This document shows positions 3,488-38,122 of a stretch of 38,122 bases of DNA, piece by piece. The stretch covers positions 1-38,122 of the forward strand of contig JAHFUL010000013.1 in NCBI GenBank assembly GCA_023265155.1, read 5' to 3'. This DNA comes from Acidobacteriota bacterium (GTDB lineage Bacteria; Acidobacteriota; Vicinamibacteria; Vicinamibacterales; CAVVIG01). Numbering within the stretch: the first letter of the stretch is position 1; each line of letters opens with the position of its first letter. The position numbers and the translations under genes were made by a program. Under the pieces are notes generated by a model. That model saw nothing but the letters and a program-made list of their open reading frames with translations. It did no database searches and was not told where the DNA came from.

Positions 3488-5764
3488 ATGCCCGCCACCG
3501 TCACGCCGATGAAGCCGCGACGCTCCAGCGGGCCGCCACCGCCGGCTCCGCGCGCCCGCCGTCCGTTTCGCGATAACCCCCGCCTGATTCTCGCTGGCAT
3601 CGGCATCCTCGTGGCCGCGCTCCTCGGCATCCTGGCGCTCGCGAACCGCTCGTCAGCCTTCTCGCCGGGTTTCCTGACGGAGTTCGTGCTCTACGCGCTG
3701 TCGGCGGCCGACCTGACGATGCTGGTCGGCCTGGTGTTCGTGCTGGCGCGCAACGTCGTGAAGCTGATCGTCGAGCGGCGGCGGGCGTTGCCCTTCGCGC
3801 GCTTCCGCGCCAAGCTGGTCGCCTTGCTGCTGGGCATGACGCTCGTGCCCGCTGTGCTCGTCCTCATGATCGGGAGCGAACTGATTCGCACCAACATCGA
3901 TCAGTGGTTCAACGCCCCGATGGACGAGATTCTGGCGGGGGCGAATCAGATCGCGGGCGATTACTATCACGAGCGCCTGATGCTCGTCAGCGATCACGCC
4001 AGCCGCATCGCGCGGGCGCTGGCGCGGGTGGATCTCACCGACGAGGACGTGGGGCCGATTCGCGCGCTGATCGCGCCCGACGTGACCGGCCAGCGCGTCA
4101 AGATGGTCGAGGTGTACCGCGTCGGGCCCGACACCGGGACGCTGCCCGGCCTGGAGCCGGTGCTCGACGTGGCCGCACCCGACCTGCCGCCGGGATACAG
4201 CCGCGCCGCCGCGGATCGGCTGGCAGCCCAGGCCTTGACAGGCTCGAACGAGACACGATCGATTGAGACACAGGGCTCGGCGGGCGACTTTCTTCGTGCC
4301 GCGGCGGTGATTCGCGCGAAGGATGGCCGCGCGGCCGGGGTGGTGGTCGCGACCGACTACCTCACGGGGGAACTGGCGATGCGCTCGCGGCGGATGACGC
4401 AGGCGTTCGAAAGCTACAACCAGTTGCGCGTGCTCAAGCGACCCATGACCGGCCTGTACCTCTCCATCTTCCTGATGGTGACGCTGCTCATTCTGTTCGG
4501 CGCGACGTGGATGGGGTCGTATCTGGCGAAGCGGATCACGCGCCCGGTGCTGATGCTGTCGGCGGCGGCTCGGGAGATTGGCGCCGGACGGCTCGATCAG
4601 CGTGTCGAGCCTCAAAGCAACGACGAGTTCGGCGCTCTGACCGAAGCCTTCAACGCGATGGCCGGTGAGTTGGCGACCAGCCGCCGCAAAGTCGACCGGT
4701 CCACGATCGAGCTCGAGCGCAAGCACCTCGAGGTGGAGGGACGCCGCCGGTACATCGAAACCATTCTCGAGCGCATCGCCACCGGCGTCGTTTCGATCAA
4801 TGCGGCGGGCGCCATCACGACGATCAACACCGCGGCGGCCCGGCTGTTGAGCCTCGATCGCGGCATCGTCGGCCAGCCGGTGCGCGCCGTCTTCGGTCGG
4901 GCAGACCTGCAGCCCCTCGGCGCGCTGCTCGCGGGCGCGACCCGGGCGAAGGGCGAGGCGGCCCCGCAGGAGATCGCCATCGTTCGTGACGGCCAGGAAG
5001 TGCATCTTGCCGTCGCCGCGACCGCCCTCGTCGGCGAAAGCGCGCCCGAGGGTGTCGTGCTGGTGCTCGACGACGTGACGCCGCTCATCCGGGCGCAGAA
5101 AGTCGCTGCGTGGCGCGAGGTCGCCCGTCGGCTCGCGCACGAGATCAAGAATCCCCTGACGCCGATCCAGCTCTCCGCCGAGCGGCTCAGGCGACACTTT
5201 GTGGGCGCGCCGCCCGAGGCCCGCGCGCTCGTCGACGAGTGCACGGGGACGATCGTCGGTGAGGTCGAATCGCTCAAGGGGCTCGTCGACGAGTTTTCCC
5301 AGTTCGCCCGCATGCCGTCGCCGCGCACGGTCCCGACCGATCTGCATCAGCACATCCTGGATACCCTGGCGCTGTACAACGGCATTTTCAGCGAGGTCCA
5401 GATCACGCATCAGTTTGCCGCGGATGTGCCGCTGGTGCATCTGGACCCGGAGCAGATTCGGCGGGTGATCATCAATCTCGTCGACAACGCGATCGAAGCC
5501 ATGGAGCGGTGCGGCACGATCCTGGTCGAGACGCAGCGAGACGCGGCGAATCACCTGGTCCGCGTCGTGGTCGCCGACGACGGTCCCGGCATACCGGCGG
5601 CCGAGCGCGACAAATTGTTCCTGCCGTACTATTCGACCAAGCGGCGCGGGAGCGGTCTCGGCCTTGCCATCGTGCGGCGGATCATTGCCGAGCACGGCGG
5701 CAGCATCGACGTCGGAGGCAACACGCCCCACGGCACACGCTTTACAATTGAGCTGCCGTGCTGA
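3488..5764 (+). CDS. NtrY-type membrane sensor histidine kinase
   Basis: A 758-residue sensor kinase. A proline-rich cytoplasmic start is followed by membrane helices near residues 33-53, 64-86 and 109-129, a periplasmic sensing region (about 130-320), another helix (about 322-345), a HAMP linker (SYLAKRITRPVLMLS onward), a PAS domain (about 425-535), then HisKA with H551 in the RRLAHEIKNPLTPIQLSAER box and an HATPase with the N box NLVDNAIEAM and the GSGLGLAIVRRI G2 loop. Architecture and H-box sequence match NtrY. The partner is the sigma54 activator immediately downstream. In other bacteria NtrYX controls nitrogen use, redox state or envelope functions; the signal here cannot be told. An ATG at 3509 is an alternative start. 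Confidence 0.88.
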   Translation: MPATVTPMKPRRSSGPPPPAPRARRPFRDNPRLILAGIGILVAALLGILALANRSSAFSPGFLTEFVLYALSAADLTMLVGLVFVLARNVVKLIVERRRALPFARFRAKLVALLLGMTLVPAVLVLMIGSELIRTNIDQWFNAPMDEILAGANQIAGDYYHERLMLVSDHASRIARALARVDLTDEDVGPIRALIAPDVTGQRVKMVEVYRVGPDTGTLPGLEPVLDVAAPDLPPGYSRAAADRLAAQALTGSNETRSIETQGSAGDFLRAAAVIRAKDGRAAGVVVATDYLTGELAMRSRRMTQAFESYNQLRVLKRPMTGLYLSIFLMVTLLILFGATWMGSYLAKRITRPVLMLSAAAREIGAGRLDQRVEPQSNDEFGALTEAFNAMAGELATSRRKVDRSTIELERKHLEVEGRRRYIETILERIATGVVSINAAGAITTINTAAARLLSLDRGIVGQPVRAVFGRADLQPLGALLAGATRAKGEAAPQEIAIVRDGQEVHLAVAATALVGESAPEGVVLVLDDVTPLIRAQKVAAWREVARRLAHEIKNPLTPIQLSAERLRRHFVGAPPEARALVDECTGTIVGEVESLKGLVDEFSQFARMPSPRTVPTDLHQHILDTLALYNGIFSEVQITHQFAADVPLVHLDPEQIRRVIINLVDNAIEAMERCGTILVETQRDAANHLVRVVVADDGPGIPAAERDKLFLPYYSTKRRGSGLGLAIVRRIIAEHGGSIDVGGNTPHGTRFTIELPC

Positions 5765-5778
5765 TCAGCGAACGTCCA

Positions 5779-5867
5779 TGAACCACGATCTCACGAAGGT
5801 CATGAAGAGTGTTTTGTAAAAAGAGGATCGTTGTGCCCCTTCGCGGTCTTCGTCTCTTCGTGGTTCA
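5779..5867. repeat. 89-bp imperfect inverted repeat (ACGAAG-type) between ntrY and ntrX
   Basis: TGAACCACGA at 5779-5788 is exactly inverted as TCGTGGTTCA at 5858-5867. The match continues inward imperfectly: both arms go on with ACGAAG and then GAAG-type words, giving arms of about 33 bp. The transcript could fold into one long hairpin ending 6 bases before the ntrX ATG. The element has no coding content and fills almost the whole intergenic gap. Confidence 0.72.
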
Positions 5868-5873
5868 CGGTTG

Positions 5874-7277
<1,404 letters not shown>

Positions 7278-7316: not shown

Positions 7317-8225
7317 TCACAGTCCCACATCTGACGTATCCGCCAGGCGCGTCTCGAGAATCTGCGAGTTGCGGAAATTCCGCAGCAGCAGGTCGGCCGG
7401 CGCGATGCCAGCCAGCGCCGCCGCCGGCACCAGCCCGACAATCTCGCTTTCCAGAATAGACACGCCGTGTTGCGCCGCCTCGCGTCGCACGGCCTCGAAC
7501 ACGCGCGGCAGGGGCGTGCGTTCGTAGTCGGTCAGGTTCATCGAGACCTGCACGATGCCGCGTTCGTGAAGCGTCAGGCCGAGGGCTTTCACGCATGGAA
7601 GACCCCCGCCGCGCTCGCGCACCACAGCAGCGATGCGTGTGGCCACGTCGAGCCGATTGGTCGCCAGATTGATGTTGTAGGCGATGAGCGGCCCGCGCGC
7701 GCCGAGAACAGATACGCCCGCGGTGGGATGCGGCGTCGAGGGCCCGAAGTCCGGCGCCCACCCCGGCCGCGTCATTCTGGCCGCCAGCCCGTCCAATCCA
7801 CCCCGACGAATCGCGTCGAGGCGCCGGCGCGCGGGATCGGCGGCGGCCTCCTCGTAGAGATAGATCGGCACGCTGAACCGTGCGGCCACCGCGGCGCCGA
7901 CTTTCCTGGCGAGCCGAACGCACTCGGCCATCGTTGCACCCTCGAGCGGGATGACCGGCACCACGTCCACCGCGCCCACACGCGGATGTTCTCCCCGGTG
8001 CGCCCGGAGATCGATGTCGGCGACGGCGCGCTCGAAGAGCGCCAGGATCGCGCGTTCGACAGCGGCCCCGTCGCCCGCCAGGGTGAACACCGATCGATGA
8101 TGAGAAGGGTCGGACGAGACGTCGAGCAGCCGCGCGCCGGCGGCCTGACGAATCGCGGCGGCCATGGCCTCGATGATCGGGGCGCGGCGGCCTTCGCTGA
8201 CGTTGGGCACACACTCTATGAGCAT
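7317..8225 (-). CDS. ftcD: Glutamate formiminotransferase (FTCD N-terminal-type)
   Basis: A 302-residue stand-alone formiminotransferase, which moves the formimino group from N-formimino-glutamate to tetrahydrofolate in histidine breakdown. The start VPNVSEGRR, the SDPSHHRSVFTLAG block and the catalytic GEHPRVGAVDVVPVIPL block (His of HPR) are family hallmarks; YLYEEAAADPARRRLD and GPLIAYNINL follow. The cyclodeaminase domain found in the animal fusion enzyme is absent. The start at 8225 gives MLIECVPNVSEG; upstream in-frame codons come from the adjoining repeat array and are not protein. It converges on ntrX with a 39-bp gap. No other hut genes are nearby. Confidence 0.88.
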   Translation of the reverse strand: MLIECVPNVSEGRRAPIIEAMAAAIRQAAGARLLDVSSDPSHHRSVFTLAGDGAAVERAILALFERAVADIDLRAHRGEHPRVGAVDVVPVIPLEGATMAECVRLARKVGAAVAARFSVPIYLYEEAAADPARRRLDAIRRGGLDGLAARMTRPGWAPDFGPSTPHPTAGVSVLGARGPLIAYNINLATNRLDVATRIAAVVRERGGGLPCVKALGLTLHERGIVQVSMNLTDYERTPLPRVFEAVRREAAQHGVSILESEIVGLVPAAALAGIAPADLLLRNFRNSQILETRLADTSDVGL

Positions 8226-8385
8226 GAGATTGCAGACCGCAGAGTGCCGATTGCAGATTGACTGCAGAGTGGACTGCAGGTGGACTGCCAGTCTGATTGT
8301 AGATTGGCCGCTCGTGTTCGCATTCTGCAATCTGCAATCTGCAATGAGCATCTGCAGTCTGCACTCCGAAAGTCTGCAATCTCAG
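8226..8385. repeat. GCAATCT/AGATTGC heptamer array with inverted arms
   Basis: The left part (8226-8300) is rich in ATTGCAG and ACTGCAG words, the right part (8320-8385) in the complementary CTGCAAT and CTGCAGT words, including CTGCAAT in tandem at 7-bp spacing around 8324-8345. The array is therefore a degenerate inverted repeat. It begins directly at the ftcD start codon and ends about 15 bp before the extended -10 element of the divergent TPR gene, so it fills the divergent intergenic region. Confidence 0.72.
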
Positions 8386-8398
8386 CGTTCGAAGTCAG

Positions 8399-8407
8399 TG
8401 CTATAAT
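8399..8407 (+). promoter_or_regulatory. Extended -10 promoter of the TPR/RDD/pgpA run
   Basis: TGCTATAAT (8399-8407) is an extended -10 element with a perfect TATAAT, 24 bases before the ATG at 8432. No good -35 box is found 16-18 bp upstream, where the heptamer array ends, consistent with an extended -10 type. Confidence 0.6.
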
Positions 8408-8431: not shown

Positions 8432-9277
8432 ATGTCCGATCCGCTTCGCACCGACACCTCGCGCGCGCTCGATGCCGCGTCGGACTCGGATCGGGACGCG
8501 AAAATCGAGCAGCTCCTGCTCGTCGGCCTCGATCACTACTTCTCCGCTGAGTACGAGCACGCCGTCAATGTGTGGACGCGCGCGCTGTTTCTCGATCGCA
8601 GCCACGCAAAGGCGCGCGCGTACATCGAGCGCGCGCGCAGCGCCCTTGCCGAGCGACAGCGCGAATCGGAAGAGCTGCTGCAGCACGGCGTCGCGGCGTT
8701 CCAGCGCGGCGATGCCGACGAGGCGCGCCGGCTCCTGCAGACGGCGATCAGTCGGGGCGCTCCACCGGAAGAAGCGCTCGCCGTCCTGGACCGGCTGAAT
8801 CGGCTCGAGCCTGGCACGGTCTTGCACCGCCCCCCGACGGCGGGCCGCAGGGGGCCGCTCCCGGTCCTGCCGGGCGAGAGGGGCCGGAGCTCCGGTGCGA
8901 AATTCTGGATGCTCCTCTGGCTGCTCGCCTTCACCACAGTCGTGGGCGGCATTGTCGTCGTCGCGCCGACGTTGGACTGGCGCTCGCTGCTGGCGTGGGA
9001 CGAAGCGTCTCCGCTTCCTGTTTCGCTGCCGGCCGCCGATTCCGGATTGCCGCTGCCTCGCCGGGGTGAGGCTGCTCTCGCGAGAGCGCGCACGCTCTCG
9101 GAGAGCGGGCATTTGCGTGAAGCGCTCGTCGCGCTGGACGGCGTGAAAGCGGCGGACCCGCAGAGGCCCGAAGCGGATCAATTGCGCGCCCGGATTCAGC
9201 ATGAGCTGATCGCGTTGATGTCCACGCGCGCACCCGAGCCGGTTGCGCGCGGCAAGAGCGACGGCCATCGGCCATGA
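8432..9277 (+). CDS. TPR-containing single-pass membrane protein
   Basis: A 281-residue protein of unknown function. Residues 25-125 contain about two to three degenerate TPR units (GLDHYFSAEYEHAVNVWTRALFLD, then GVAAFQRGDADEARRLLQTAI). A basic, proline-rich linker leads to one membrane helix at about 159-179, followed by an outer segment with another TPR-like helix pair (ARTLSESGHLREALVALDGV) near residues 215-250. TPRs mediate protein contacts, so this looks like a membrane scaffold. It overlaps the next gene by ATGA and is probably coupled to it. Confidence 0.7.
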   Translation: MSDPLRTDTSRALDAASDSDRDAKIEQLLLVGLDHYFSAEYEHAVNVWTRALFLDRSHAKARAYIERARSALAERQRESEELLQHGVAAFQRGDADEARRLLQTAISRGAPPEEALAVLDRLNRLEPGTVLHRPPTAGRRGPLPVLPGERGRSSGAKFWMLLWLLAFTTVVGGIVVVAPTLDWRSLLAWDEASPLPVSLPAADSGLPLPRRGEAALARARTLSESGHLREALVALDGVKAADPQRPEADQLRARIQHELIALMSTRAPEPVARGKSDGHRP

Positions 9278-14555: not shown

Positions 14556-15634
14556 CGCCTGCCGACTACATGAATTCGGCGTTGTTCCATGCCGCGCGGG
14601 GACGCGGACGGACGAGCCCGAACCCGACAGTCGGGGCTGTGGTGGTGTCGCCCGACGGCAGCGTCGTCGGATACGGGTGCACCGAGAAGGCGGGATCCCG
14701 CCACGCCGAAGTGGTGGCGCTCGACATGGCAGGTGATCGTGCGCGCGGCGGCACGTTGTACTGCACGCTCGAGCCGTGCAGCCATGTCGGCCGGACCGGG
14801 CCCTGCGTCGCCCGCATCGTCGAGTCCGGGATCGCGCGTGTCGTGGCGTCGGTTGGCGATCCCAATCCGCTCGTGCACGGGCAGGGGTTCGCCTTCCTGA
14901 CGGCGCACGGCGTCGGCGTTGAGGTGGGACTTGGAGCGGCGCGGGCAAGGGCGCTCAATCAGCCTTTCTTCACGCTCGTGACGGAACATCGGCCGTTTGT
15001 CATCCTGAAAGCGGCGATCAGCCAGGACGGCTGCATGGCAGAGGCGCCCGGGGCGCGCACGCAGCTGACGTCGGAGGCGGCGAACAGACACGCACAGCGC
15101 ATCCGCGCCGAAGTGGACGCCATCGGCGTGGGCGTCGGTACGATCCTCGTCGACGATCCGCTCCTCACGGCGCGCGGGGCGTATCGCGAACGCCCGCTCG
15201 TGCGAGTGATTTTCGACCGCACGTTGAGGACTCCGCCCGGCGCCCGCGTGCTCTCGACACCGGAGGCCGGCCCTGTCATGATCGTGACAAATGGCGCGGG
15301 AGCGGCGCGTGCAGAAGTGCGCAGGCGACTCGAGGATCGTGGAGCGGATATCGAGGTCGTGGAGGATGGCACGCTGCGGTCGGCGCTCAGGACACTCGGG
15401 GATCGACAGATCGGTTCGTTCCTGCTCGAAGGCGGGCCGACGCTGCACCAGGGCGCGTGGGATGAAGGCGTCGTCGACTTCGTCCGACTCTACGTCACGC
15501 CTCACGTGCTCGGGTCGTCCGGCGTCCGCCTGCTGAACGGACGGCCATTCTCGTCTGCCGCGCTGGTGGAGCGCCGCGTTCACCCGCTCGGTCCGGATGT
15601 GTTGATAGAAGGTTATGTTCACGGGCCTCATTGA
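14549..15634 (+). CDS. ribD: Riboflavin biosynthesis bifunctional deaminase/reductase RibD
   Basis: A 361-residue enzyme with an N-terminal pyrimidine deaminase and a C-terminal reductase, carrying out two consecutive steps after GTP cyclohydrolase II. The deaminase zinc site shows HAEVVAL and TLEPCSHVGRTGPC, preceded by TSPNPTVGAVVV. The reductase half shows RPFVILKAAISQDG, TSEAANRHAQRIRAEVDAIGVGVGTIL and DDPLLTAR, and ends in LEGGPTLHQG. The start is a GTG at 14549 overlapping the ftsY stop, with GAGGAG only 2 bases away; the ATG at 14570 is an alternative with no visible ribosome site. A much longer in-frame extension through ftsY has no family support. It overlaps ribE by 20 bp. Confidence 0.92.
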   Translation: MVTPADYMNSALFHAARGRGRTSPNPTVGAVVVSPDGSVVGYGCTEKAGSRHAEVVALDMAGDRARGGTLYCTLEPCSHVGRTGPCVARIVESGIARVVASVGDPNPLVHGQGFAFLTAHGVGVEVGLGAARARALNQPFFTLVTEHRPFVILKAAISQDGCMAEAPGARTQLTSEAANRHAQRIRAEVDAIGVGVGTILVDDPLLTARGAYRERPLVRVIFDRTLRTPPGARVLSTPEAGPVMIVTNGAGAARAEVRRRLEDRGADIEVVEDGTLRSALRTLGDRQIGSFLLEGGPTLHQGAWDEGVVDFVRLYVTPHVLGSSGVRLLNGRPFSSAALVERRVHPLGPDVLIEGYVHGPH

Positions 15635-16241
15635 AGCCGTTGGTGAAGTCGTCGAGTGCAAACCGACGAGCGGTGGGACCCGCTTCCGCATCGGGACCCG
15701 TCTCGCCGGCGAACTGGCGCCCGGAGACAGCCTCGCGGTCAACGGTGTGTGCCTGACCGTGATCCTGGCGGAGCACAACGAAGTGCACGCCGACGTTGGC
15801 CCCGAAACGCTGCGCGTCACCACGCTGGGCGGTATCGAGCGTGGAACCCCTGTCAATCTGGAGCGGCCATTGCGTTTTGACAGCCGGTTTGGTGGGCACT
15901 TCGTCCAGGGGCACGTGGACGCGGTCGGGTACGTCGAGGAATTGCGGGGCGATTCCGACTTCCACTGGCTGACGGTCAGCTTCCCGCCGGCTCTTGCCCC
16001 GTACATCGTGCACAAGGGCTCGATCGCCATCGACGGCATCAGCCTGACCGTTTCGGGACTTGGCGTCGATCGCTTTGACGTGATGGTCGTGCCGTACACG
16101 CTTGACCATACGAACCTGAAAACACGTCAGATTCGGGATCGTGTGAACCTGGAATGCGACATGGTCGGCAAGTACGTCGTCCGCGCGGCGGAGATTGCCG
16201 GGTTGACGCTCACGTCAACAGCGAAGAGCATGGCGCATTGA
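15615..16241 (+). CDS. ribE: Riboflavin synthase alpha subunit
   Basis: A 208-residue enzyme that dismutates two 6,7-dimethyl-8-ribityllumazine molecules to riboflavin. It shows the internal duplication of the family: MFTGLIEAVGEV opening and SLAVNGVCLTV in the N-terminal barrel, then GGHFVQGHVDAVG linking to SIAIDGISLTV in the second barrel. It closes with CDMVGKYVVRA, close to the family C-terminus. It overlaps ribD by 20 bp and is followed by a repeat array and ribBA. Lumazine synthase (ribH), which supplies the substrate, is not found in this window. Confidence 0.95.
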   Translation: MFTGLIEAVGEVVECKPTSGGTRFRIGTRLAGELAPGDSLAVNGVCLTVILAEHNEVHADVGPETLRVTTLGGIERGTPVNLERPLRFDSRFGGHFVQGHVDAVGYVEELRGDSDFHWLTVSFPPALAPYIVHKGSIAIDGISLTVSGLGVDRFDVMVVPYTLDHTNLKTRQIRDRVNLECDMVGKYVVRAAEIAGLTLTSTAKSMAH

Positions 16242-16417
16242 GCTCTCAGCTCTCAGCTCTCAGCTTGCAGCTTGCAGCTATCAGCCCCGAAAGCTGAGCT
16301 GAGAACTGAAAGCCGAGAGCTGAGAACTGAAAGCCCAGAAGCTGAGAGCCGAAAGCCGAGAACTGAAAACTGAAAGCCGAAAGCTGAAAGCCGAGAGCTG
16401 AAAGCCGAGAGCCGAGA
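16241..16417. repeat. 177-bp AGCTGAA/AGCCGAG heptamer array with inverted arms
   Basis: The left arm is in phase on a 7-bp period: AGCTCTC three times, AGCTTGC twice, AGCTATC. From about 16288 on the complementary words take over (GAGAGCT, GAAAGCC, GAACTGA and variants) up to the last base before the ribBA ATG. The left arm can therefore pair with many positions of the right arm. The array fills the entire ribE-ribBA gap and supplies the only purine-rich stretch (GAGAGCCGAGAC) ahead of ribBA. Confidence 0.82.
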
Positions 16418-16418
16418 C

Positions 16419-17666
16419 ATGAAACGCCAAATCGAGATCGCGAAGGGCGCGCGTAAACACCTGGGTCCGTTTGCCCGCATCGAGGACGCCATCGAGGCCA
16501 TTCACGCCGGGCAGATGGTCATCGTCGTCGACGATGAGGATCGCGAGAATGAGGGCGACCTGACGATTGCCGCGCAGTTTGCGACGCCCGACGCCATCAA
16601 CTTCATGGCCCGCTACGGCCGGGGCCTGATCTGCCTCTGCCTCACCGAGGAGCGTTGCAACCAGCTCGAGTTGCAGCCGATGACCATGAAGAATGAGGCG
16701 ACGTTCGGCACGGCCTTCACCGTTTCGATCGAGGCGCGCGACGGTGTGACCACCGGCATTTCCACGCGCGACCGCGCCCGGACGGTTCAGGTGGCGATCG
16801 ATCCCGCCATGGGCGCGCGTGATCTCGTTCAACCCGGGCACGTGTTTCCACTGCGCGCGCGCGACGGCGGCGTGCTGCAGCGCGCCGGACAGACCGAAGC
16901 CGCCGTCGATCTGGCGCGGCTCGCCGGCCTCCTCCCCGCCGGCATTGTCTGCGAGATCATGAACGACGACGGCACGATGGCGCGGCTGCCGCAGCTGTCG
17001 AAATTCGCCAAGCGTCACGGGTTGCTGCTGGTGACGGTCGCCGATTTGATCAAGTACCGGATGCGGATCGAGTCGCTGGTGAAGCGCGTGGCAACGGCGA
17101 AGATGCCGACCGAGTTCGGCGACTTCGAAATTCACGCGTTCGAAAACCAGATCGACAAGCAGACCCATGTCGCTCTGGTGCGCGGCGACATCGGCGACGG
17201 CAGAGACGTCATGGTGCGCGTGCACTCCCAGTGTCTCACCGGAGACGTGCTGCATTCGATTCGATGCGATTGCGGCGCGCAGCTCGATGCGGCGATGCAG
17301 CGGATCGCGTCCGAAGGGCGCGGCGTCCTTCTGTACCTCAATCAGGAGGGGCGCGGCATCGGCCTGGCGAACAAGATTCGCGCCTACGAGCTGCAGGATG
17401 AGGGGTTGGACACGGTGGAAGCCAACGAGCGGCTCGGCTTCAAGGCCGATCAGCGCGACTACGGGATGGGCGTCCAGATTCTGCGGGAGATCGGCGTCCG
17501 GACGATGCGGCTGCTCAGCAACAATCCGCGCAAGCTCGTGGGAATCGAGGCGTACGGTCTGTCTGTCAGTGAATGGATTGCTCTCGAAATGCCGCCGTCC
17601 GAGTCGACGCGACGCTACATGAAAACGAAGAAGGACAAGCTGGGCCACAAGCTGTCCTCCGTTTGA
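16419..17666 (+). CDS. ribBA: Bifunctional DHBP synthase / GTP cyclohydrolase II (RibBA)
   Basis: A 415-residue fusion of the two enzymes that open the riboflavin pathway. The RibB domain (about 20-215) has [16 protein letters not shown], the [16 protein letters not shown] block, [19 protein letters not shown] and the [21 protein letters not shown] active-site block. The RibA domain (about 220-405) has [20 protein letters not shown] with the zinc cysteines, then [15 protein letters not shown] and [16 protein letters not shown]. Both active sites look complete. The ATG directly follows the heptamer array, which must provide the ribosome contact. No FMN riboswitch was recognised ahead of ribD or ribBA. 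Confidence 0.95.
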
Positions 17667-31761: not shown

Positions 31762-34386
31762 TCACTCGCGGACGCCCCCGATCGCGTTTCTCAGCCACCA
31801 GAGCCTGTCGGCCGCTCCAACGAAGAGATCATCCGGGAATCGCCGATAGGTCAGCATTTCCGCATAGATGCTGTCAGCCTTCTGCAGATTCAGTCCAAGG
31901 CCGGCCAGATACTGCAGCCGCAGATCGCCGTCGCGGTTGATGGGCGCGTCCCGCAGCCAGCCCGTCAGCTCCGACGCCCGTCCCGCGTAGTTGCCGAGCA
32001 ATTCGACCCCCGAGAAAATCCCGACCTGCCCGAGCGAGAGCTTGACCGCCGCGTAGAACGGCTGGCTCAGGCGCTGCTCCATTGCATCCACGTCGATCGG
32101 TTCCGGATCCGCTTGACCGAACAGCACCATGTCGTAGCCCTTCCCATCGGCCGCGTTGCCCCAGATGATGCCGCCCGGAAACACCTCGAAGAAGGTCGCC
32201 ACCTCGCTCTTCACGGCCTCGGGGCTGCTCTCGTACAGCTGCACGAACAGCGTGACCACCCCGCCCGGATTCAGATGGCGTCTGACCACCTCGAAAAACT
32301 CCTTGGTGTAGAGCGTTGCCGCGCCCTTTACCCAGGGGTCAAGAGGATCGGAAGTGATGCCGTCGAACGTTTCCTTCGTCGTCGACAGAAAATGCCGCGC
32401 ATCGTCCACGAGCATCCGTGTCTTCGGGCTGCGCACGACATCCTGATTCGCTTCGCCGAAGTACATCGACACCACTCGCGGAACGAGCGGCTCGATCTCG
32501 ACGATCGTGACGCGCTCGACGAGCGGATCGATGCTGACGGCGCCCGCGGTCACGCCGGCGCCGCAGCCGATGACGAGCACCGAGCGCGGTTGGAGAGACG
32601 TCAGGGTCGTCAGATGCCCGAGCATCCGCTGAAGCCGCATGTCGTGGGGCTCGCTCGATGCCTGGATCTTGCCGGCGTTGTGGTAGTTCAGCACGCCGCT
32701 CGAAAGACGCGACACCGCCACCGATGAATTCAACCCTTCGCCGACATAGAAGATGTCGGCCGTGCGACCCGCCCAGCTCGGTGCATGCCGGCCATAGGCA
32801 ACGACGAGCTTCGAGACCGGCGGCACCGTCGCGCATACGGCGCCTGTGAGAACCATCACGAGTGCCCCGCGCATCGCAACCGCCGTCGGCCTGAGCGCCG
32901 CCGCGCCCGCGCGGGACAACAACATCAGCATGCCGGCTGCCGCCGAGGCGGCCATCATCGCCTGCTGCGTGTGCTGTGATCCGATCCACGGGACGAGCAA
33001 CAGACTCGCAGCCAGCGCACCGCAAATGGCGCCAGCGGTGTTGGCGGCCAACAGCCCACCGACACTCCGCTCTGGTTCCCCGCTGTCCGCCGCGCCCGCG
33101 GCGAGCGCCAGAGGAACACTCGCGCCCCACAGAAGCGGGGCCGGCAGCACCGCCCACAGCGCCCGGACGAAATCGAGCTGAAAATTGAACCAGATGCTCG
33201 TGGAAATCGCCGGCGCAACCGGCCAGTACGGCAGCGAGTCGGCGAGCATCCATGCCGTCCACGCCATCGCGCCGACGCTGAGCAGCTGGCAGCAACCGAG
33301 TGCCAGATGCGGACGCGCCAGCGTTCTGGACAGCAGCGCTCCGGCGCTGCTGCCGATTCCGAGCCCCGTCAGATACACGGCCAGAATGATTGAGAAGGTG
33401 TAGACGGTTCCGCCGAACAGCAGCCCGAGTCCGCGCGTCCAGATGACCTCTGCAGCGAGGGCGCTGAAGCCTGAGAGGGCGAGGCAGAGGTGAAGGTTCA
33501 CGGGGTTCACAGGGTTCACCAGGTTCACACGGTTCACCGGGTTCACACGGTTCACGGGGTTCACAGGGTTCACCAGGTTCACACGGTTCACCGGGTTCAC
33601 AGGGTTCACCGGGTTCACACGGTTCACCGGGTTCACACGGCTCGCAAGGTTCACTGAGTTCGCCAAGCCCGCCTGCACCGGCTGCCCCACCTGCCGCGAA
33701 AGGGTGACGGCGATCGCCGCGACTCCCAGATTGATCGCCGCAGCGACCATCGTGGCGATCGTCATGTCGAAGATGCGCAGCAGATAGAAGCCGGCGAGAA
33801 GGGTGCCGAACACGGCGCCCGCGATGTTGCCGGCATAGAACAGACCGAGCCACGAGGTTCCGAACGGCGTGTCTTCAGTCCATCGTGCGACGGCCGGCAG
33901 TGTGGCGCCCATGGCCAGTGTCGGCGGCAACAGGCAGAGCGCGGCGACGAGGCCTCGCAGCAGAAAGCCCGTGACACCGTAGCCACCCCACTCGGTGTAC
34001 ACGCGGCCCGCACGAGGCAGAACGAAGAGCAGCAGGACGCCGAGAACGCCGATCGCCAGCTCGAGGCCGGCGTAGACCCGCAACGGATGATGCCGCTTCG
34101 GAATGACTCGCGGAAGAAGCAGGCTGCCGAGGCACATGCCGCCCATGAACGTCCCGAGCAGCACGCCGATCGAAACGGCCGAGGAGCCGACGAAGAGCTG
34201 CAGCATCTGCAGCCAGACAGTCTCGTAAATGAGCGCGGACGCGCCGCTGCCGATGAACAGCAGCAGCACTATCGCGGCACGCGCGTCCGGTGGATCGACG
34301 GGAGACGATTCGGTCAGTTGGTCTACACTAACATGAAGGTCCCGCGACGCGCGTTCCGCATCCGCTGCCGTCGAATTCAACAGCAA
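31762..34386 (-). CDS. Membrane-anchored spermidine-synthase-like protein with repeat-encoded linker
   Basis: An 874-residue fusion. Two blocks of membrane helices (about 38-230 and 305-535) of the MFS-like type that accompanies spermidine synthases (SGASALIYETVWLQML; SGFSALAAEVIWTRGLGLLFGG) precede a SAM-binding Rossmann domain (about 590-780) with VLVIGCGAGVTAG, VEIEPLVPR, VDDARHFL and SDPLDPWVKG. A polyamine-synthase-like aminopropyl transfer is possible but the substrate is not determined. The helix blocks are joined by a (V-N-x)n stretch of about 50 residues encoded by a 9-bp repeat. The annotated start is a TTG; a second TTG two codons on is also possible and no strong ribosome site is seen. 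Confidence 0.82.
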   Translation of the reverse strand: MLLNSTAADAERASRDLHVSVDQLTESSPVDPPDARAAIVLLLFIGSGASALIYETVWLQMLQLFVGSSAVSIGVLLGTFMGGMCLGSLLLPRVIPKRHHPLRVYAGLELAIGVLGVLLLFVLPRAGRVYTEWGGYGVTGFLLRGLVAALCLLPPTLAMGATLPAVARWTEDTPFGTSWLGLFYAGNIAGAVFGTLLAGFYLLRIFDMTIATMVAAAINLGVAAIAVTLSRQVGQPVQAGLANSVNLASRVNPVNRVNPVNPVNPVNRVNLVNPVNPVNRVNPVNRVNLVNPVNPVNLHLCLALSGFSALAAEVIWTRGLGLLFGGTVYTFSIILAVYLTGLGIGSSAGALLSRTLARPHLALGCCQLLSVGAMAWTAWMLADSLPYWPVAPAISTSIWFNFQLDFVRALWAVLPAPLLWGASVPLALAAGAADSGEPERSVGGLLAANTAGAICGALAASLLLVPWIGSQHTQQAMMAASAAAGMLMLLSRAGAAALRPTAVAMRGALVMVLTGAVCATVPPVSKLVVAYGRHAPSWAGRTADIFYVGEGLNSSVAVSRLSSGVLNYHNAGKIQASSEPHDMRLQRMLGHLTTLTSLQPRSVLVIGCGAGVTAGAVSIDPLVERVTIVEIEPLVPRVVSMYFGEANQDVVRSPKTRMLVDDARHFLSTTKETFDGITSDPLDPWVKGAATLYTKEFFEVVRRHLNPGGVVTLFVQLYESSPEAVKSEVATFFEVFPGGIIWGNAADGKGYDMVLFGQADPEPIDVDAMEQRLSQPFYAAVKLSLGQVGIFSGVELLGNYAGRASELTGWLRDAPINRDGDLRLQYLAGLGLNLQKADSIYAEMLTYRRFPDDLFVGAADRLWWLRNAIGGVRE
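33496..33666. repeat. Intragenic 9-bp tandem repeat (GTTCACNNN)19
   Basis: Nineteen consecutive 9-mers, of which 16 begin with a perfect GTTCAC and the last three (towards 33666) are degenerate. The variable triplets show higher-order order: units 1-5 (33496-33540) are repeated exactly as units 7-11 (33550-33594), a 54-bp duplication. Because 9 is a multiple of 3, every copy keeps the reading frame of the minus-strand gene and encodes V-N-P, V-N-R or V-N-L. Confidence 0.95.
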
Positions 34387-37800: not shown

Positions 37801-37840
37801 GGATATAGGGCAGGCCGGGCAGGGCAGGCAGGTAACTGTC

Positions 37841-38122
37841 GGACTCGTAGGCCCGACCTTGAGGTCGGGCGAGCAGCCATCGGACTCGTAGGCCCGACCT
37901 TGAGGTCGGGCGAGCAGCCATCGGACTCGTAGGCCCGACCTTGAGGTCGGGCGAGCAGCCATCGGACTCGTAGGCCCGACCTTGAGGTCGGGGGAGCAGC
38001 TATCGGACTCGTAGGCCCGACCTTGAGGTCGGGGGAGCAGCTATCGGACTCGTAGGCCCGACCTTGAGGTCGGGCGAGCAGCCATCGGACTCGTAGGCCC
38101 GACCTTGAGGTCGGGGGAGCAG
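37841..38122 (+). repeat. Tandem array of a 41-bp REP-like repeat (6.9 copies, runs off the window)
   Basis: Copies begin at 37841, 37882, 37923, 37964, 38005, 38046 and 38087, exactly 41 bp apart; the last is cut at 36 bp by the window end. Each carries GTAG followed by GCCCGACCTTGAGGTCGGGC or its GGGG variant, a perfect or near-perfect hairpin. Copies differ only at two positions, GGGCGAGCAGCC against GGGGGAGCAGCT. The array is nearly homogeneous, so it expanded recently. The GTAG-palindrome head matches the singles at 19245 and 20466. Confidence 0.93.

Follow-up and report, generated by a model that had tools for sequence, protein, structure and literature searches.

Inverted repeat arms in three gene gaps

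The window analysed here, a stretch of 38,122 nt, is one entire contig of a MAG from an Acidobacteriota bacterium (2.53 Mb in 114 contigs, 66.5% complete), whose nearest named relatives are MAGs of group-6 Acidobacteria (Vicinamibacterales). Three of its gene gaps are filled, almost flush or for the most part, by inverted arms made of a short word and its complement. One of these gaps lies between a formiminotransferase gene (FTCD_N/FTCD; 7317–8225, minus strand) and a gene for a TPR protein (8432–9277, plus strand). The left arm (8226–8305, plus strand) is built of GATTGCA/GACTGCA heptamers and begins immediately upstream of the formiminotransferase start codon (CAT, 8223–8225), and the right arm (8320–8384, minus strand) is built of TGCAATC heptamers, the reverse complement of the left word. 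These are the ATTGCAG-type and CTGCAAT-type halves described in the initial annotation. The inverted arms match over 26 nt at 81% and, as also anticipated there, can pair in many alternative registers. DNA folding of 8226–8375 gave -35.7 kcal/mol (z -4.4), and none of 200 shuffles, the number used for each locus, folded as well.

Two putative -10 hexamers were assigned in this gap from conservation, a consensus scan of the region having found no full promoter. TACAAT (8296–8301, minus strand) would serve the formiminotransferase gene. It is one variant unit (ATTGTAG) of the array, and its position is kept in the array-bearing relatives. TATAAT (8402–8407, plus strand), kept in relatives, would serve the downstream TPR gene and falls outside the right arm.

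The AGCT-type array at 16241–16417 separates the riboflavin synthase alpha gene (ribE, lumazine-binding domains; 15615–16241, plus strand) from ribBA (DHBP synthase/GTP cyclohydrolase II; 16419–17666, plus strand). It opens inside the ribE stop codon (TGA, 16239–16241) and extends to the ribBA ATG at 16419. The left arm (16239–16285, minus strand) consists of AGCTCTC/AGCTTGC units, the reverse complement of AGCTGAN, and the right arm (16296–16418, plus strand) of AGCYGAN units. The arms are unequal, 6.4 copies of AGCTCTC (45 nt) being followed by about 17 degenerate GAGCTGA/GAAAGCC copies (122 nt), and the right arm additionally shows super-periods of 14 and 21 nt. The AGCTCTC and GAGAGCT-type halves noticed at first are thus present, and the DNA fold of 16241–16390 (z -5.0) was equalled by none of the shuffles.

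The 5779–5867 locus lies between genes for an NtrY-like sensor histidine kinase (3488–5764, plus strand) and an NtrC-type sigma-54 response regulator (5874–7277, plus strand). A left arm of TGAACCACGA-CACGAAG type (5776–5807, plus strand) faces a right arm, CTTCG-TCTTCGTGGTTCA (5839–5870, minus strand). The mirrored 10-bp pair reported here, TGAACCACGA/TCGTGGTTCA, is exact and lies within a 32-nt inverted repeat at 72%. Its description as an array did not stand: the locus is a single inverted repeat and hardly an array, with a fold only moderately above chance (z -2.2; 6 of the 200 shuffles as good). It gains weight because two relatives, G018 and G015, have longer two-armed CACGAAG/CTTCGTG arrays in the same gap. 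Three unrelated words share one two-arm layout, most strongly at 8226–8385 and 16241–16417.

Other repeats occur in the window, for which Rfam gave no match. A 9/18-nt repeat of GGTTCACCG type at 33495–33654 sits within a long minus-strand ORF (31762–34386) and codes for an Asn-Pro-Val-Asn-Arg-like run. A 41-nt tandem repeat with a GACCTTGAGGTC palindrome (37839–38122; 6.9 copies, 97% matches) reaches the contig end and is probably what halted the assembly.

Orthologous gaps in relatives

Orthologous gaps were compared in up to 26 relatives, all of them drafts, mostly or all MAGs, from outside the window's genus. Below, G000 denotes the window's own genome, and G001, G002, G007, G009, G015 to G019, G023 and G024 denote relatives; gene calls, made with a home-made gene caller, are approximate. 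These gaps are either tiny or, often, occupied by a two-armed array, and both arms are usually gained or lost together, as the annotation had predicted. The formiminotransferase-TPR gap measures 46–92 nt, with back-to-back putative -10 boxes, in 14 genomes, and 134–233 nt in five array-bearing genomes. In those five the left arm is located between the formiminotransferase -10 and the start codon, and the right arm upstream of the TPR -10. Because a putative -10 separates the two arms of 8226–8385, neither local promoter should give a transcript that holds both, and an RNA hairpin was rejected as a general function for this reason. A bare 7-periodic GATTGTAGATTG with a putative -10 is found without arms at this gap in G007. 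Arms on either side of such a -10 would fit growth around a pre-existing sequence, or arm loss. Both arms at this gap draw on one word set in each genome: ATTGCTG in G009, ATTGCAG in G000 and ATTTCAG/ATTGCAG in G017/G018. That both arms in G009 use one word was not kept as proof that they change in concert: at other loci of this genome, A/T variants occur in mixture both inside an arm and between the two.

At the junction of histidine kinase and response regulator, the genes overlap by 4 nt in 8 genomes, and other genomes carry two-armed GGCTGAT, CACGAAG or GTTGACAGTC-type sequences. The ribE-ribBA gap is mostly 0–45 nt in relatives, with a two-armed AGCTGA array of its own in G016, a single arm in G019 and a GAATTC-type array in G018. 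The rpsJ-rplC gap ranges from -4 to 8 nt in 9 of 27 genomes and from 29 to 278 nt in the other 18. Ten of these 18 hold two-armed periodic hairpins (8 heptamer-periodic and 2 with a 9-nt period; z -3.2 to -7.4), which use about eight words, e.g. AAACTGA/TCAGTTT, GAGGCTG, GGCTGGT, GGCTGAT and GGCGGGTGG.

A second dispersed element, GCGGGGGTGGGGCCCC-like, occurs at the rpsJ-rplC gap in five genomes (G000, G009, G015, G017 and G024), in most of them followed by an A-rich stretch ahead of the rplC start; a similar motif adjoins an array in G016. The 278-nt gap of G015 contains an apparent partial duplication of the rpsJ 3' end (GTTCGGGAAAAGCATAAGTAG).

Word families and polarity

Genome-wide periodicity in G000 was assessed on a 764-kb sample plus targeted stretches. 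In the sample, period 7 gave the most islands of any period from 4 to 39, with 98 arrays versus at most 39 for periods 5, 8, 10, 11 or 13. Families in G000 include AGCYGAN, ATTGCAG, GGGATTR and TTGAACC, and words of 8 or 9 nt occur besides those of 7 nt; the eight-nt word GATGGGGT forms four inverted array pairs, all strongly G-first. Over the whole genome the AGCTGA pattern has 215 matches versus 1 for the reversed control, and ATTGCAG has 51 versus 0. According to the approximate gene calls, the AGCTGA elements of G000 are almost all intergenic, and many of their outer ends lie no more than about 30 nt from a gene, on one flank or on both. One-armed arrays are common, making up about half of the AGCTGA elements. 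The number of copies varies greatly from genus to genus and even inside one genus (602 matches in G016 versus 1 in G015).

The order of the arms is fixed for each word. Of the 16 two-armed AGCTGA elements in G000, 15 have the order TCAGCT...AGCTGA (P=0.0005), and this order prevails by 41:3 in G016 and by 7:0 in G009 after duplicate removal (48:3 together). The ATTGC family has the opposite order, ATTGCWG...CWGCAAT, by 7:0 in G000 and, counted by eye, by 8:0 in each of G009 and G002 (23:0 in total); the GGGATTR family of G000 likewise shows only the plus-then-minus order. As a two-armed element reads the same on both strands, polarity is an internal property and not an orientation relative to genes. 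Adjacent arrays of one word are inverted in 75 cases and direct in 17 over all fetched loci (P ~7e-10), among which array-rich loci are over-represented; loci fetched for the most part irrespective of arrays give 24:4. The inverted pairs group into 26 word clusters, 22 of which have a G-rich left arm (19 of 22 with looser clustering). No mechanism was argued from this G-first tendency, because long non-array hairpins share it: in the intergenic part of the G000 sample, those with stems of at least 10 pairs are G-first by 37:17, versus 125:122 for all non-array hairpins.

Comparison of the two arms

A process that copies and flips, such as fold-back priming or template switching, had been suggested as the source of the two arms. 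Copying of one arm from the other should leave the free letter of the heptamers mirrored. As the null for this test, left arms were combined with right arms taken from other elements (re-paired arms). Mirror identity in G016 was 0.290 versus 0.427 for the null, hence below that of re-paired arms (lower tail P=0.0006). It was 0.331 versus 0.434 in G000, again not above re-paired arms, and 0.626 versus 0.528 in G009, which is not significant. The unit counts of the two arms are uncorrelated (Spearman -0.08, -0.29 and -0.15), and the two arms of a single element in G009 and G002 often carry different A/T variants. Within an arm, letter identity at a lag of two units is 0.53–0.60 versus 0.25–0.41 expected, which indicates that arms grow separately by steps of 14 nt (and 7 nt). 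Slippage thus acts inside each arm. That G016 arms match below random may, as a guess, reflect the loss of perfect palindromes.

Dispersal of the elements

Among 33 two-armed units of G016, the centres gave 41 similar pairs versus 0.1 in shuffles, and 20 of the 33 fall into four clusters. Centres common to these 20 units show that whole units were dispersed in this genome. About one third of the G016 outer ends share TIR-like GACTTGGCGT/TTGTGTTGACGT next to AGCT. Inspection revealed no obvious direct repeat outside the AGCT ends in G016 that would represent a target-site duplication; AGCT itself could be the duplicated target. A search of G015, which belongs to the same genus, for the flanks of G016 elements had few usable orthologues. 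The AGCTGA centres of G000 gave 1 similar pair versus 0.1 expected (shuffle maximum 1). Units were presumably dispersed in G000 too, older and decayed copies being the simplest reason for the weak centre signal, and the window's own copies would then have arrived as units.

A trans-acting enzyme would move these elements. RAYT (PF01797) genes are present in 18 of 27 genomes, with none detected in G000 (66.5% complete) or G001. None of the RAYT genes of relatives was found beside an AGCTGA array, and mobilisation by RAYT was rejected on this ground. No transposase tied to the arrays was found. GT precedes the outer AGCT at 26 of 78 G016 ends, at 4 of 56 once CGT flanks are removed, and at 0 of 14 in G009; the seeming enrichment of a REP-like GTAG tag is due to the CGT flank, and the tag was rejected.

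Origin of the arrays

We propose that the arrays are several lineage-specific families of small, non-coding, non-autonomous dispersed inverted-repeat elements, REP/MITE-like, with slippery heptamer arms, a reading to which we give an even chance. Each element would consist of an arm (a tandem 7-nt word, sometimes 8 or 9 nt), a short spacer and an arm of the complementary word, in an order fixed for each word. Two-armed units would enter gene junctions, as REPs and MITEs do, and each arm would then grow or shrink separately by slippage or tandem duplication in steps of 7 and 14 nt. Such separate change would keep the hairpins imperfect and able to pair in many registers, and a fast turnover of families would place different words at the same gap in different genera.

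Simple slippage alone is insufficient for the two-arm layout, as was argued at the outset. Chance 7-periodic sequence could have expanded by slippage at each site, the inverted arms arising independently. In many bacteria, long simple repeats are most commonly heptamers according to Mrazek (2007, as cited in PMC4679880), and the bare GATTGTAGATTG of G007 could be such a starting point. However, one word recurs at many loci of a genome, inverted pairs of a single polarity dominate, and G016 units have common centres, so that a purely local origin is decidedly improbable. The copy-and-flip model, in which fold-back priming or template switching at a replication fork inverts a one-armed array and the arms subsequently change together, would explain why inverted neighbours far exceed direct ones (75:17 and 24:4) and why the arms at the formiminotransferase gap draw on one word set in each genome. 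We consider it improbable, since the arms are not letter-by-letter mirrors, with those of G016 below re-paired ones, their lengths are uncorrelated, the A/T variant is often unlike between arms of one element, and words recur across many loci. A symmetrical process would moreover yield both polarities, whereas polarity is fixed for each word.

Fixed polarity would also be expected if selection kept the arms, either as paired opposite-strand sites binding a protein or as a hairpin acting in mRNA processing, termination or DNA topology. The position of the elements at gene boundaries, the different words that form strong hairpins at a single ribosomal junction, and the paired tandem 7/8-mers of Geobacter metallireducens, published as sites of a global regulator (PMC2700814), agree with this. 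On the other hand, words differ between genera and sites, many relatives have no element of any kind at the corresponding site, copy numbers differ widely between genera and within one, and both arms of 8226–8385 should not be spanned by one local transcript; we regard a selected structure as unlikely. Templated end addition assumes an activity, telomerase-like or otherwise templated, that extends both 3' ends of a break with one word before the ends are joined. It predicts a word followed by its complement in fixed polarity, unequal arms, one-armed arrays and words common across loci, and the G-rich left arms of most clusters recall the G strand of telomeres. Yet G016, G000 and G023 yielded no reverse transcriptase (G016 and G000 being incomplete), the commonest family is not G-first, G016 units share centres, and long non-array hairpins are G-first too. 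An origin by reverse transcriptase or telomerase-like activity was rejected, no reverse transcriptase having been found in the most array-rich genome, and such addition is extremely improbable as the general explanation. In a broader form, some word-independent process other than ordinary mobile elements, e.g. templated addition at both ends of a break, would write fixed-polarity arrays into gene junctions with a word supplied by each lineage; this is very improbable.

Relation to known systems

The two-arm layout is of a known kind, and relatives of the arrays are known from Xanthomonas and Geobacter and among the TAACTGA repeats and REPs. The GGGAATC heptamer arrays of Xanthomonas campestris and X. 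axonopodis include 70 and 75 convergent two-array cases, and long repeats are located at different genes in related species (PMC4692102). They resemble the present arrays in being dispersed, intergenic and inverted in pairs of one polarity, which is the polarity of GGGATTR here (PMC4692102). Indeed, our arrays are likewise two close tandem 7-mer arrays on opposite strands, of fixed polarity and mostly intergenic. Each Xanthomonas genome has one G-rich word family, discussed as G-quadruplex (PMC4692102), whereas here a genome holds many unrelated words, most of them without G-tracts (ATTGCAG and AGCTGAN have no G3 tract, and in G000 only the GGGATTR family has one), different genera have different words at orthologous gaps, and the arms were shown not to mirror each other. 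Classes 1–3 of G. metallireducens are also short tandem words paired on opposite strands with variable spacing, several classes per genome, but they have 3–5 copies per site at few sites, were read as regulator sites and come with no comparison of orthologous gaps (PMC2700814). TAACTGA repeats of Beggiatoaceae, Cyanobacteria and Bacteroidetes are intergenic heptamer arrays near start codons with a patchy phylogeny; they differ in having one word and being essentially one-armed, with 169 direct sets and one indirect repeat in the reference genome (PMC4679880). REP/BIMEs (GTAG- and CGTC-tagged; PMC3733652) and MITEs are similarly small palindromic units that lie dispersed between genes, often as inverted pairs and in lineage-specific families. 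In contrast to both, the arms here are heptamer arrays of variable length without RAYT association, and, unlike in REPs, a GTAG tag is seen only in a subset, where another flank accounts for it.

Literature searches for such arrays in Acidobacteria returned nothing relevant, and the multi-word, word-swapping form in Acidobacteriota appears to be undescribed. As far as the literature was searched, three things are new: how many unrelated words there are, that one word takes the place of another at a given gap from genus to genus, and the mirrored-arm test, which the obvious fold-back model fails. The little-noticed paired heptamer arrays of Xanthomonas and Geobacter are thereby widened to a bacterial family where many a genome has a set of words to itself and where a single ribosomal junction has been filled over and over with differing words. 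The origin and spread of such arrays can be studied in this natural series, as can the question whether core-gene operons tolerate strong hairpins at their junctions.
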